From NCBI GenBank assembly GCA_022072405.1, contig JAJVHX010000026.1:1-64000 (forward strand): a stretch of DNA of 64,000 nucleotides. The letters are read 5' to 3'. Source of the DNA: Phycisphaerae bacterium (GTDB lineage Bacteria > Planctomycetota > Phycisphaerae > UBA1845 > CAIVHJ01). Positions 58,384 through 64,000 of this stretch are shown here, in pieces (positions within the stretch are counted from its first letter, which is position 1; each line of letters starts with the position of its first letter). A program made the translations under genes and the position numbers. The notes under the pieces are model-generated. The model made no database searches. It saw nothing but the letters and a program-made list of their open reading frames with translations, and was not told the DNA's origin.

Positions 58384-59120
58384 GTTTGAAACCCAGCACG
58401 ACACGTTTGATTCAGGGATTAGTCTTCCTGATGTGGGTGGCCGCCTACGGATGGTTATGGTGGAGCGGGCGTTATAGCAAGTTTGTCAGGCCGGAATTCG
58501 ACTTTTTGATGATCAGCGGGGGCCTGTTCTGCTTGCTGTTGCTGGGGGTAGTACTTTTCCCCTCACGTCTGTCGGGAGGCTGTTGTGCGCCTCAGGTCAG
58601 TGATCGACTCTGGGTTCATGGTGCCATACTGCTGCTGCCGCTATTATTCATGGGCGAGGGGCTGAATTATCGCTTTACCAGCGCGGATATGAAACGTAAA
58701 CAGCTATCCAATCAGCAGATGGCGGGTTTTTCGGCAGATGTCGGACAGGACAATACGATCCAGAATGAGGTTCCCAGATCGCATGGCCCGCAACATTTGA
58801 ATATATTGAATCTGGTCCGGGGGATGAAGCAGATACAGGGGCAACGGGTTCTGACAGAGGGCGTCGTCTTTCGTGACGATCAACTGGCGGACGATCAGCT
58901 CTACGTATATCGTTTTGTGATGATCTGTTGCGCGAATGACGCCCGGCCAGTAGGCATCTTGGTCAACCATCCGCAAGCCAGCCAGTTTGAAAATGACACC
59001 TGGGTGCATATCGAAGGTATAGTGGGTGAAACCATCTTCCAATCTCAGCAGATACCGTTGATAAAAGCCGATCTGCTCGAGTCATTTGAATCTACCGAAA
59101 GTCCATTTCTTTATTACTAG
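58374..59120 (+). CDS. TIGR03943 family (YcgQ-like) membrane protein
   Basis: N-terminal TM pair, then GFVFRDDQLADDQLYVYRFVMICCANDARPVGILV-type C-terminal domain; overlaps the permease gene by 10 bp. Confidence 0.85.
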   Translation: MAVSLKPSTTRLIQGLVFLMWVAAYGWLWWSGRYSKFVRPEFDFLMISGGLFCLLLLGVVLFPSRLSGGCCAPQVSDRLWVHGAILLLPLLFMGEGLNYRFTSADMKRKQLSNQQMAGFSADVGQDNTIQNEVPRSHGPQHLNILNLVRGMKQIQGQRVLTEGVVFRDDQLADDQLYVYRFVMICCANDARPVGILVNHPQASQFENDTWVHIEGIVGETIFQSQQIPLIKADLLESFESTESPFLYY

Positions 59121-59474
59121 CGTCGCCTGCTTATCAACAATAGCGCTCTGAAAAATAGACATGGTGATGGCGCTAAATGATCACCAACAGGTCTGTTTAT
59201 ATTTTTCAATGCATGATTTTTCAGTCAATGCCAATTATCAGTATTGATAGTTGATGAATAACTACTTGTATTCAAGCTTCAATTAGGAACTATCAATTAG
59301 AACTGGCGAATTATCACAAAAAGGAGCAGGTTAGTTTATCAATGATGATTCATGTCTGAATGTAATTTGTTGTGGTTGTGAAATTATCTCACGAGTGGGA
59401 TTTTTTATGAACTAATAAAGATTGAGTAAAGTAGAAAGATTCTTTGTTTTTTCCGCATTTCTGGCAAAATTGTA

Positions 59475-59505
59475 TTGCGTCATGCGTACATTAATGAGGT
59501 ATAAT
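59475..59505 (+). promoter_or_regulatory. sigma70-like promoter candidate
   Basis: TTGCGT - 19 bp - TATAAT (59500-59505). Confidence 0.4.
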
Positions 59506-59511
59506 TTGTCT

Positions 59512-59860
59512 AAAGGTCGGGTGTTCAGCTTAGCCTGTTAATAAGCTGATTCGGGCATGGGAATATGGACCAGCGAAGCAGCAGGGATGCGGTAATCATC
59601 CGGGCTGGATGATGGAGCTTATGCTGATTTCATGTCTCCTGCACGAGTAAGTGATCAGTCAACTCGTGGCCGTACTCTGCAAGAAATAAATCTGTTTCAG
59701 ACATTAAACTTGTGATGGCAGGGATGCTGGACAGGATCGAGATTTCCAAGTCCCTGTAAATGTGCGGCGTGCGGCGAGAATATATTTTTGATTTGTTCTA
59801 GCACACACGCTTCCATTTTTTAACTATCGAGATTGATGCGATTTACCGGGCCGGAGATCT
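59512..59860 (+). ncRNA. candidate structured RNA or long 5' leader
   Basis: Perfect hairpins TCAGCTTA/TAAGCTGA (59525-59549), ATCATCC/GGATGAT (59595-59613), CACGAGT/ACTCGTG (59642-59668), TCTG/CAGA (~59690) and CAGGGA/TCCCTG (59719-59756); no ORF in track on either strand here. Confidence 0.45.
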
Positions 59861-59863
59861 GCA

Positions 59864-60391
59864 ATGGGTGAACAGGTACTCATCGTAGGCGCAGGTAACT
59901 GGATGTATGGCGATGAAGCCGCTGGCATTATTATCGCTAACGAGCTGGGCCGCCGGTTGGGTGATTTTGTCAAGGTGACGTATGACCTTGGCCGGGTCCT
60001 GGGATACTTGCACATTCAGCAACCAAAAGAATTGGAGCAGATAATTTTTACGACCATGGCAGCCGAAGATGAAGATCATCCCTCCGGCAGCTGGTGTCGT
60101 CTGGATATGGCGATGGATACTTCCAGAACGGAAAGCAGTTGGTTGACCGGAACCAGAAGCCTGAAGTTGCCGGAAATGGTGGATCTAGCCCGTCGGGTGG
60201 CCGCCCACGGTGTACATACAACTATTTATGTACAGTTTGGTTCGGATTTCCGACTGGGTGCCCCGCTCTCCCTGCCGGTCAAAAAGGCGATCGAGGCTAT
60301 CGAAGACCGGATTGAAGAGGAGATTCGCGCCGGACAAAGCGTGAGATCAGCTCCATCGCGACGAGGTTTATCTGCAACGGCTCCGTTTTAG
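59864..60391 (+). CDS. hydrogenase maturation protease-like (HycI/HupD fold) protein
   Basis: MGEQVLIVGAGNWMYGDEAAGIIIANEL resembles the GxGNxxxGDDGxG signature of peptidase family M52. Confidence 0.55.
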   Translation: MGEQVLIVGAGNWMYGDEAAGIIIANELGRRLGDFVKVTYDLGRVLGYLHIQQPKELEQIIFTTMAAEDEDHPSGSWCRLDMAMDTSRTESSWLTGTRSLKLPEMVDLARRVAAHGVHTTIYVQFGSDFRLGAPLSLPVKKAIEAIEDRIEEEIRAGQSVRSAPSRRGLSATAPF

Positions 60392-60555: not shown

Positions 60556-62112
60556 ATGGTAGGACAATTGCCCTTGGCGAACAGTGATCGGCCACTTCGC
60601 ATCGCACTACTCGCCTGGGAGAGTATGCATTCCATAGCCGTGGGCGGCTTGGCGGCTCACGTATCGGAGCTGGCTGCCGCACTGAAGCGGCGGGGTCACG
60701 ATGTCCATCTTTTCACCCGCATGGGTGCCGGGCAGAATCGTTATGACTGTATCGAAGGGGTCCACTATCATCGTTGTCCATTTGACCCCAATACCAATGG
60801 CGATTTTCTACAATATGTTAACCGCATGTGTGACAGCTTCACCTGGCATCTGCAGGATGTGGAGAATTATCTCCATCGGCCATTTGACATTGTGCATGGT
60901 CACGACTGGTTAAGCGTCCCGGCTTTGGTTCGTTCGCGCAATGATTTCAACCATCAGGTGGTCTTTACCCTCCACTCGACCGAATATGGCCGGTGCGGAA
61001 ACCAGATGTGGGGTGGTCAATCGGAGCAGGTCCGACATCTGGAGTGGGAAGGTGCCTATGTGGCCAATCAGCTGATCTGCGTATCCAAAGCCTTGCGCCA
61101 GGAAGTACACTCGTTGTACCAGGTTCCGCTCGACAAGATGTGGGCGATATATAACGGAGTTGATGTTCATAAATTTGATGCGGATATAAACGTGGCCTCA
61201 GTGCGTCGTCGGGTGGGTATCGGCGTGGATGATCCCATGATCCTCTTTGCCGGGCGGCTGGCTTGGCAGAAGGGGCCTGATCTGCTGGTCGAAGCTATGC
61301 CCAGAATCCTGAACCAGCATCCGCGCACCAAGTTCATATTCGCTGGTGATGGGTCGATGCGCCAGGGACTGGAAGACCGGGTGGCAGAGATCGGAGCCCA
61401 CGAATCCACCCGTTTTCTGGGCCATCGCAACGGTTTGGAATTAATCAGTCTGTTTAAGACGGCTGACGCCGTCTGTGTTCCCAGCCGCAATGAACCATTT
61501 GGTATTGTCATTCTGGAAGCCTGGAGTGCCCGCAAGCCAGTCGTTACCACCCGCAATGGTGGTCCGGCTGAGTTTGTCCGCCATGAAGATACGGGGCTGA
61601 CCGTCAGTGATCATCAGGATTCGATCGGTTGGGGAATTGAGACGGTTCTCAATCGGATAGATAGCGCTCGACAGATGGGGGAGAATGGTCGGGTCGAGGC
61701 GGAAACCCGTTTTTCATGGGATACGATTGCTGTCCAGACACTGAAAGTGTATAACACTGTACTGAATCAACCCTACAATACCACAACAACAGTAATTAAT
61801 GGATCCGTAATGGAAACAGATCAGGAGTTGCAGATCATGGCCCGATCAGCTCGCAATAATAACAACCCGGGGAAAAGCACTCCGAAACCATCATCAACCC
61901 GCAGTCGTTCGACCACGAGCGCCAAGACCAGCACCACGCGAACAGCGCGTTCCACTGGCAAATCCGCGACGGCAACGAATCGTACCGTGAAGGTCGTGAC
62001 CGAGGAGATGATTCGTCAGCGTGCCCATCAGATCTATCTGGCGCGCAATGGCACGCCCGGTGATCCCGCGCAGGATTGGCTGCAGGCTGAGCGCGAGTTG
62101 CGCGGCGTCTAA
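60556..62112 (+). CDS. GT4-family glycosyltransferase with C-terminal DUF2934-like domain
   Basis: ALLAWESMHSIAVGGLAAHVSELAAALKRRGHDVHLFTR...GRLAWQKGPDLLVEAMPRIL...PSRNEPFGIVILEAWSARKPVVTTRNGGPAEFV; C-terminus EEMIRQRAHQIYLARNGTPGDPAQDWLQAERELRG. Confidence 0.9.
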   Translation: MVGQLPLANSDRPLRIALLAWESMHSIAVGGLAAHVSELAAALKRRGHDVHLFTRMGAGQNRYDCIEGVHYHRCPFDPNTNGDFLQYVNRMCDSFTWHLQDVENYLHRPFDIVHGHDWLSVPALVRSRNDFNHQVVFTLHSTEYGRCGNQMWGGQSEQVRHLEWEGAYVANQLICVSKALRQEVHSLYQVPLDKMWAIYNGVDVHKFDADINVASVRRRVGIGVDDPMILFAGRLAWQKGPDLLVEAMPRILNQHPRTKFIFAGDGSMRQGLEDRVAEIGAHESTRFLGHRNGLELISLFKTADAVCVPSRNEPFGIVILEAWSARKPVVTTRNGGPAEFVRHEDTGLTVSDHQDSIGWGIETVLNRIDSARQMGENGRVEAETRFSWDTIAVQTLKVYNTVLNQPYNTTTTVINGSVMETDQELQIMARSARNNNNPGKSTPKPSSTRSRSTTSAKTSTTRTARSTGKSATATNRTVKVVTEEMIRQRAHQIYLARNGTPGDPAQDWLQAERELRGV

Positions 62113-62372
62113 ACAGCACCGTGTTCAATCTGGTTGCTTCCACACCCTTAAATCGATTTGGGTAAATCGTATGATGGCGATGTTGCGCGCCCCTTGCAAT
62201 CGGCCCGTAGTGGCATAGACTATCGGTCCTCTATCTTCAATCCCGCTGCCGACCCCGGTTTCTGGTAATAGCTACTCTTCTCTGGCGGTAACCCAGATCA
62301 AGCTTACCCGGTATCGAGTCGATAAGGATGATTGGGGATAACGCTCGGAGGAAGCCGGGCAGGAGCGCGGTC

Positions 62373-64000
62373 ATGCAGGTTGAAGCGGGAAAACCCTATC
62401 CATTGGGCGCCCATTGGGACGGCCGAGGGGTCAACTTCGCACTCTTTTCTCACCATGCGACCAGTGTCACGCTCTGCCTGTTCGAACGCCACGACGCGCA
62501 ATCAGAATATCTGCGCATTCCACTTCGCCGCCGCACCAATCGGGTCTGGCATGTTTACGTGCCCGGATTCCGCCCGGGCTTACTTTATGGATATCGTGTA
62601 GATGGTCCGTTCATGCCGGATGAAGGCCACTACTTCAATCCATATAAACTGCTGATTGATCCGTACGCGCGAGCGCTGAGTGGACCGTGTCAGTGGCATC
62701 GATCTCAGGTCGGCTACATGGCCGACACGCCCGATCAATATCGTCAACGCAGCACAGCTGACAGCGCTGCCTACGTACCCAAGGCGGTAATCATCGATCC
62801 CACATTCGACTGGGAGGAGGATCGTCCTCCGCGCGTTCCCTGGCACCGTACCGTCATCTATGAATGTCATGTGAAAGGTCTCACCAAACTGCATCCCGAA
62901 ATTCCACCGGAAATACGCGGCACCTACACCGCGCTGGGCGCCCAGCCGATTATCGATCATCTGCTGCATCTCGGTATTACGGCGGTCGAGCTGCTGCCCA
63001 TTCATCAGTTTTTCAACGAAGGCCATCTGGTGGACAAGAAACTGGTGAATTACTGGGGCTACAGCTCGATTGGATTTTTTGCTCCGGAAGCCCGCTATGC
63101 CACCAGCATGGCGGGCCAGCAGGTGATCGAGTTCAAGCAGATGGTCAAGCAGTTGCATCGCGCCGGGCTGGAGGTGATTCTGGATGTGGTCTATAACCAC
63201 ACCGGAGAAGGCAATCACCTGGGGCCGACAATCTGCTACCGGGGGCTGGACAATGCCTCTTATTATCGACTGGCACCCAATCAGCGGCGCTACTACTGGG
63301 ACAGTACCGGCTGCGGCAACAGCCTGGATACAACCCATCCGCGCGTTCTGCAACTGATACTGGACAACCTGCGCTACTGGGTGGAGGAGATGCACGTCGA
63401 TGGATTTCGATTTGATCTGGCGCCGACGTTGTCGCGCGAACCGCATCATATTGATCGCTGGGGCCGCATCTGGGCCGCCATGCTGCAGGACCCGGTGCTG
63501 GCGGAGTGCAAGCTGATCGCCGAACCCTGGGACCTGGGTTTTGACGGCTACCAGACCGGGCGTTATCCGATTGGCTGGTCGGAATGGAACGACCGTTTCC
63601 GTGACACGGTGCGGAAGTTCTGGCGTAACCAGCCCGGTCAGACGCCGGAATTTGTCGGCCGGCTCACCGGCAGCAGTGATCTCTATGAACACAGCGGCCG
63701 GCAGCCGACTGCCAGTATCAACTTCGTCTGCTGTCATGATGGTCAGACCTTGCGTGACGTGGTCAGCTACGAAGGCAAACATAATCTGGCCAATGGTGAA
63801 GAAAATCGCGACGGCACGAATGACAATTACAGCTGCAACTGGGGTGTTGAAGGGCCCAGTGGCAACGAGACCATCAGCACTATTCGCGAACAAGTGCAGC
63901 GGAACATGCTGGCGACGCTGGCCTTTTCGATGGGCGTACCGATGCTGGCCGCCGGTGATGAACTGGGTCGCTCGCAGCAGGGCAACAACAATGCTTACTG
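62373..64000 (+). CDS. glgX: glycogen debranching enzyme GlgX (3' end outside window)
   Basis: From ATG 62373: MQVEAGKPYPLGAHWDGRGVNFALFSHHATSVTLCLFERH...; FRFDLAPTLSRE; open to window edge so missing from the ORF track. Confidence 0.92.
   Translation, partial: MQVEAGKPYPLGAHWDGRGVNFALFSHHATSVTLCLFERHDAQSEYLRIPLRRRTNRVWHVYVPGFRPGLLYGYRVDGPFMPDEGHYFNPYKLLIDPYARALSGPCQWHRSQVGYMADTPDQYRQRSTADSAAYVPKAVIIDPTFDWEEDRPPRVPWHRTVIYECHVKGLTKLHPEIPPEIRGTYTALGAQPIIDHLLHLGITAVELLPIHQFFNEGHLVDKKLVNYWGYSSIGFFAPEARYATSMAGQQVIEFKQMVKQLHRAGLEVILDVVYNHTGEGNHLGPTICYRGLDNASYYRLAPNQRRYYWDSTGCGNSLDTTHPRVLQLILDNLRYWVEEMHVDGFRFDLAPTLSREPHHIDRWGRIWAAMLQDPVLAECKLIAEPWDLGFDGYQTGRYPIGWSEWNDRFRDTVRKFWRNQPGQTPEFVGRLTGSSDLYEHSGRQPTASINFVCCHDGQTLRDVVSYEGKHNLANGEENRDGTNDNYSCNWGVEGPSGNETISTIREQVQRNMLATLAFSMGVPMLAAGDELGRSQQGNNNAY

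Follow-up and report, generated by a model that had tools for sequence, protein, structure and literature searches.

The intergenic DNA in front of a glycogen-metabolism operon in a Phycisphaerae bacterium may encode a structured, lineage-specific 5' leader that acts in cis on that operon, is transcribed from a promoter near 59475-59505 and has CsrA as its likeliest reader. This account as a whole is offered tentatively and at somewhat less than even confidence. That the leader is regulatory is probable, and a link to the Csr system is plausible by analogy. The leader reading is drawn from an operon on the same strand, the lack of a terminator, structure above that of shuffled sequences and of the other gaps, and an element that recurs before a paralogous gene in a related genome. 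If the leader does regulate the operon, this would suggest that the control of carbon storage through an mRNA leader reaches into the Planctomycetota, where Rfam families do not cover it. The element is found in a single small family, which would make any effect local and not that of a widespread RNA class.

In the proposed mechanism, transcription would begin near 59475-59505 and continue into the HycI-fold gene at 59864, and the leader would act in cis on the glycogen-metabolism operon. The shared element would fold as a long hairpin (59549-59648) with AUGGA unpaired near its tip, and a nearly isoenergetic alternative pairing would largely bury AUGGA. CsrA would bind the leader and adjust how efficiently the operon mRNA is translated or how stable it is. 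We infer a cis-acting role, binding by CsrA and any switch between conformations from the observations below.

The locus and its putative promoter

The window is the whole stretch of 64,000 nucleotides that was analyzed, and its positions are those in contig C21 of a 3.57-Mb, 28-contig genome (G000). Its features are collected in Table 1. The gap between a TIGR03943-like gene, which ends at 59120 and is accompanied by a gene for an ArsP-type permease, and the gene at 59864 measures 743 bp (59121-59863), close to the 740 bp of the preliminary description. The promoter-like TTGCGT-N19-TATAAT named in that description does lie at 59475-59505 with a spacer of 19, and the open reading frame track that it called empty holds no + strand frame of at least 50 aa in the leader. 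Promoter spacers are usually 16-18, so that a spacer of 19 is longer and off-optimal. A consensus promoter scan found no canonical sigma-70 site on the + strand of the leader and did not list the TTGCGT-N19-TATAAT site, from which transcription would presumably start. No terminator-like site was found in a scan from 59505 to 59864. The region is present in a single copy according to a genome-wide search for repeats and copies. The first half of the gap (59121-59507) is unusually AT-rich, with 34% GC versus 56% for the window, and its structure is not in excess of shuffles.

Table 1. Features of the leader and of the first operon genes (window coordinates)
Feature	Position	Strand	Remarks
Promoter-like TTGCGT-N19-TATAAT	59475..59505	+	TTGCGT 59475-59480, TATAAT 59500-59505; from sequence only
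Putative 5' leader of glycogen operon, ~350 nt	59508..59863	+	co-directional; no terminator-like site; MFE z -2.07
Hairpin TCAGCTTA/TAAGCTGA	59525..59549	+	8 bp perfect, loop 9
Shared element TGATTCnnGCATGGGAAT(AT)GGAyC(A)GCGAAGnAG	59547..59581	+	common to leader of paralogous HycI-fold gene in G001
Alternative long hairpin holding shared element	59549..59648	+	-113.6 kcal/mol vs -115.4 for free fold
Hairpin ATCATCC/GGATGAT	59595..59613	+	7 bp perfect, loop 5
Second shared block ATGGAGCTT	59612..59620	+	has ANGGA site, unpaired in long-hairpin fold
Hairpin CACGAGT/ACTCGTG	59642..59668	+	7 bp perfect, loop 13
Small hairpin TCTG/CAGA	59691..59701	+	4 bp, trivial
Hairpin CAGGGA/TCCCTG	59719..59756	+	loop 26, ACAGGATC inside loop
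Shine-Dalgarno-like GGAG before ATG 59864	59853..59856	+	GG 0.92 unpaired, next A 0.11
HycI/HybD-fold (hydrogenase maturation protease-like) gene, divergent, first of operon	59864..60391	+	ends at 60391; TIGR00072, protein model
GT4 glycogen-synthase-like glycosyltransferase gene	60556..62112	+	C-terminal DUF2934
glgX	62328..64000	+	runs past window edge; 720 aa on contig

Structure of the leader

A long gap of this kind might be an ordinary, non-regulatory intergenic region or untranslated leader, in which the hairpins are incidental and the likeness to the related genome is due to chance or to leftover ancestry of duplicated upstream regions. Such an origin is doubtful, and it is nevertheless the alternative that has to be taken most seriously. 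The folding energy lends it some support, as the minimum free energy of 59508-59863 (-116.4 kcal/mol) has a z-score of only about -2.1 (-2.07) and was equalled by 4 of 100 shuffles. On the other hand, this z-score is the lowest among the 12 intergenic regions of at least 180 bp in the window. All five hairpins of the preliminary description were found in their places, and the three perfect stems of at least 7 bp in 59500-59863, where shuffles have a mean of 0.44 (P=0.004), also speak against an incidental origin. For stems of at least 6 bp, the excess is not clear (4 versus 1.8 in shuffles, P=0.10). The best sub-window for folding is 59580-59690 (z=-3.1). The leader is thus structured beyond its composition, and the signal is real but modest.

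An element shared with a paralogous leader

The related genome, G001, is a Phycisphaerales MAG of a sister genus in the same family, and L003, L030 and L045 denote loci in it. In G001, a paralogous HycI-fold gene has a leader whose likeness to the window leader was first spotted by eye. Local alignment of the whole gaps gave p=0.0014, and restriction to the leaders gave p values of 2e-4 to 2e-3. Among 1884 partly overlapping control comparisons, one unrelated alignment was equal in score, which puts the odds of the first shared block by itself at about one in a thousand; the second block is collinear and therefore adds weight to the match. The equal-scoring control is a point for the non-regulatory explanation, whereas the leader-only p value of down to 2e-4 together with the collinear 9-nt block is a point against it.

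Among 114 genomes of the order, the core pattern turns up only twice, in the window and in the G001 paralogue leader. A sequence profile (R1), built from these same two copies, gave them 55-62 bits in 397 genomes of the class, and the next best match had 18 bits. By this search of whole genomes of the class, the element is confined to one small family. The presence of copies in two genomes only is again compatible with a non-regulatory gap, and an element with only two copies is too rare for evolution to show that its fold matters. The leader of the orthologous operon in G001 (L003) is without the shared element, and its alignment to the window leader is not significant; that leaders of orthologous operons are unalignable also favors the non-regulatory explanation. 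A promoter-like stretch was seen in L003 at a similar distance, by eye only. The GT4 orthologues of other families in the order have no HycI-fold gene in front, and the element is absent from their leaders. BLAST searches for DNA relatives of the region gave none in 101 genomes (100 relatives), and none were found among phages and plasmids. The 13 pattern matches in viral contigs, which stem from roughly four unrelated sequences and in no case precede GGAGCTT, were judged to be chance.

Leader, small RNA or leader peptide

A scan with the Rfam 15 covariance models, which include tmRNA, RNase P, 6S, SRP, riboswitches and Csr sRNAs, gave no family at the gathering score; the one chance match, to VIS1, had 19.9 bits of the 100 needed. 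With no Rfam family to match, the region does not belong to a known class; the preliminary description could not match it by eye to tmRNA, RNase P, 6S or SRP either. That description had offered a trans-acting ncRNA and a regulatory leader as alternatives. The latter is now favored by the co-directional operon, the lack of a terminator and the element before the paralogous gene, and the former has become less likely. The lack of a terminator between the promoter and the gene in particular makes a cis-acting 5' leader likelier than a free sRNA; of the marks of an independent sRNA, a promoter-like site is present and an intrinsic terminator is not.

A trans-acting sRNA of some 250-300 nt that has a promoter of its own and might serve as a CsrA sponge is consequently improbable. 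The promoter-like site, the several hairpins and the nine GGA motifs, about two of them in predicted loops, would suit it, but GGA is not enriched (9 versus 7.5 expected in the window leader, P=0.29) and the shared element keeps its place upstream of HycI-fold genes and does not move freely. Sponge RNAs of the CsrB/CsrC/RsmZ type likewise combine hairpins and GGA motifs, and they differ from the window leader, which has no terminator, no enrichment of GGA, mostly paired GGA motifs and no Rfam match. With leaders of the riboswitch type, the window leader shares its length, its structure and its two nearly isoenergetic folds; unlike them, it shows no Rfam aptamer, no aptamer conserved across the class, no terminator and no difference between the folds in access to the Shine-Dalgarno sequence.

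It is just as unlikely that the conserved entity is a leader peptide or upstream open reading frame (LIRAWEYGPAK...MELMLISCLLHE in the window, MIQAWEWIAKEKMELALCSYLIESC in G001): the shared blocks stand in one frame in both copies with 10 identical residues in the peptide alignment, an ATG start is present in the G001 paralogue copy and the orthologous G001 leader also has a 41-codon frame that starts with ATGATT, but in the window copy no ATG, GTG or TTG precedes the conserved part in frame, the conserved residues in the first block are encoded by identical and not by synonymous codons, Pfam and PHROGs give no family, and a search of 298 genomes of the class gave no relatives above noise. The 41-codon frame (L003:1213-1338, MIAAQINPIHISAIEKANPASVFVIRPILYEFFDTGALEYI) has only a weak match in PHROGs (E 0.015), one that carries no functional assignment.

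Two folds and CsrA as a candidate reader

To return to a cis-acting leader, the two predicted folds compete closely. The long hairpin is the minimum free energy fold when transcripts end at 59640 or 59660, and it is predicted to give way once the transcript extends through 59660-59690. For the complete leader, the long-hairpin fold is 1.8 kcal/mol above the free fold, and inclusion of the first part of the gene narrows the gap to 0.4 kcal/mol. The long-hairpin fold leaves the conserved AUGGA of the window unpaired, and in the unconstrained ensemble this motif is mostly paired. The G001 copy, which lacks the ATCATCC/GGATGAT hairpin, is predicted to form a single long hairpin whose AUGGAG stays unpaired close to the tip. 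These models suggest an arrangement in which one fold displays AUGGA and the other hides it. Alternative folds are common in random sequences, and the core hairpin of the window, taken by itself, does not exceed shuffles in stability (z -0.36). In a hand alignment, the window and G001 hairpins were not superimposable by columns and gave no consensus fold (z +0.48). Columnwise covariation showed nothing, two sequences being too few for a meaningful test. A switch by simple occlusion of the Shine-Dalgarno sequence is not supported, as the two folds leave the ribosome site open to the same degree; of two fold windows, one has the A after the GG of this site mostly paired.

The window leader is longer than that of the glgCAP operon in E. 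coli. CsrA acts as a repressor of glycogen synthesis in E. coli and has four known sites on the mRNA of glgCAP (PMC3856055). Its sites tend to place GGA in the loop of a hairpin, and they usually overlap the Shine-Dalgarno sequence (PMC3856055). Points in common with glgCAP are an untranslated leader before glycogen genes, a genome that carries csrA, and GGA motifs, one of them at the Shine-Dalgarno sequence (PMC3856055). The window differs in that the operon has another first gene, the leaders are not homologous in sequence, GGA and ANGGA are not significantly enriched and the CsrA sites are predicted motifs.

By this analogy, CsrA would be the most economical candidate reader of the leader. 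The proposal builds on the E. coli precedent, the csrA genes of the family (3 of 3 genomes; in the source genome on G000:C10, PF02599, 88.1 bits), the csrA-like gene directly upstream of the element in G001, the GGA of AUGGAG, predicted to be unpaired in the G001 copy and in the long-hairpin fold of the window, and the excess of ANGGA in the G001 paralogue copy (6 sites versus 1.95 expected, P=0.004). In the window leader, the GGA motifs at 59567 and 59734 are predicted to be about 0.65-0.85 unpaired, and that at 59614 is unpaired only in the alternative long-hairpin fold. Counted against CsrA and a switch are the ANGGA sites of the window leader (4 versus 1.85 expected, P=0.11), the orthologous leader L003 without the element (ANGGA P=0.23), the equal access to the Shine-Dalgarno sequence and the unconstrained ensemble, in which pairs specific to the long hairpin reach only 1-4%. 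There is little reason to expect the most far-reaching version, a new lineage-specific riboregulator in which two exclusive folds show or hide a CsrA-type AUGGA hairpin and couple the glycogen operon and a recruited HycI-fold protein to Csr in Planctomycetota.

The glycogen operon and its first gene

Genes for a HycI/HupD-fold protein and a glgA-like GT4 enzyme, glgX, glgB, malQ and glgP follow each other on the same strand; the last three lie beyond the window and were named by eye from their translations. The product of the first gene scored 42.6 bits against TIGR00072, under the cut-off of 47.45. Its model has a pLDDT of 82.5, and its best PDB match is 1cfz (E 5e-8). Among named relatives with the gene, the nearest is a lake-sediment MAG of the Phycisphaerales. 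Two relatives of the gene are found in G001, with identities of 37% (L003) and 31% (L030). The L003 gene heads the orthologous GT4 operon, and the L030 gene sits after an MpsC (DUF2294) gene and a csrA-like gene. The order MpsC/DUF2294, csrA-like gene, shared RNA element and HycI-fold gene at L045:5240-6954 (G001:C418) is an unusual neighborhood that ties a Csr protein to the HycI-fold family.

The T-H-S of relatives is changed to T-R-S in the window protein and to S-N-S in L003, and the Asp of I-D-A-A is absent in the window, L003 and L030 proteins. In HybD these columns hold metal ligands, and for this reason the operon protein may be a repurposed, non-proteolytic paralogue. A NiFe hydrogenase cluster of the bidirectional type is present elsewhere in the genome (G000:C17, L119:2808-7948; large subunit by PF00374, other genes by eye). 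It has its own small maturation-protease-like gene (L119:7445-7948, named by eye), and the NiFe hydrogenase can therefore probably do without the glycogen-linked paralogue.
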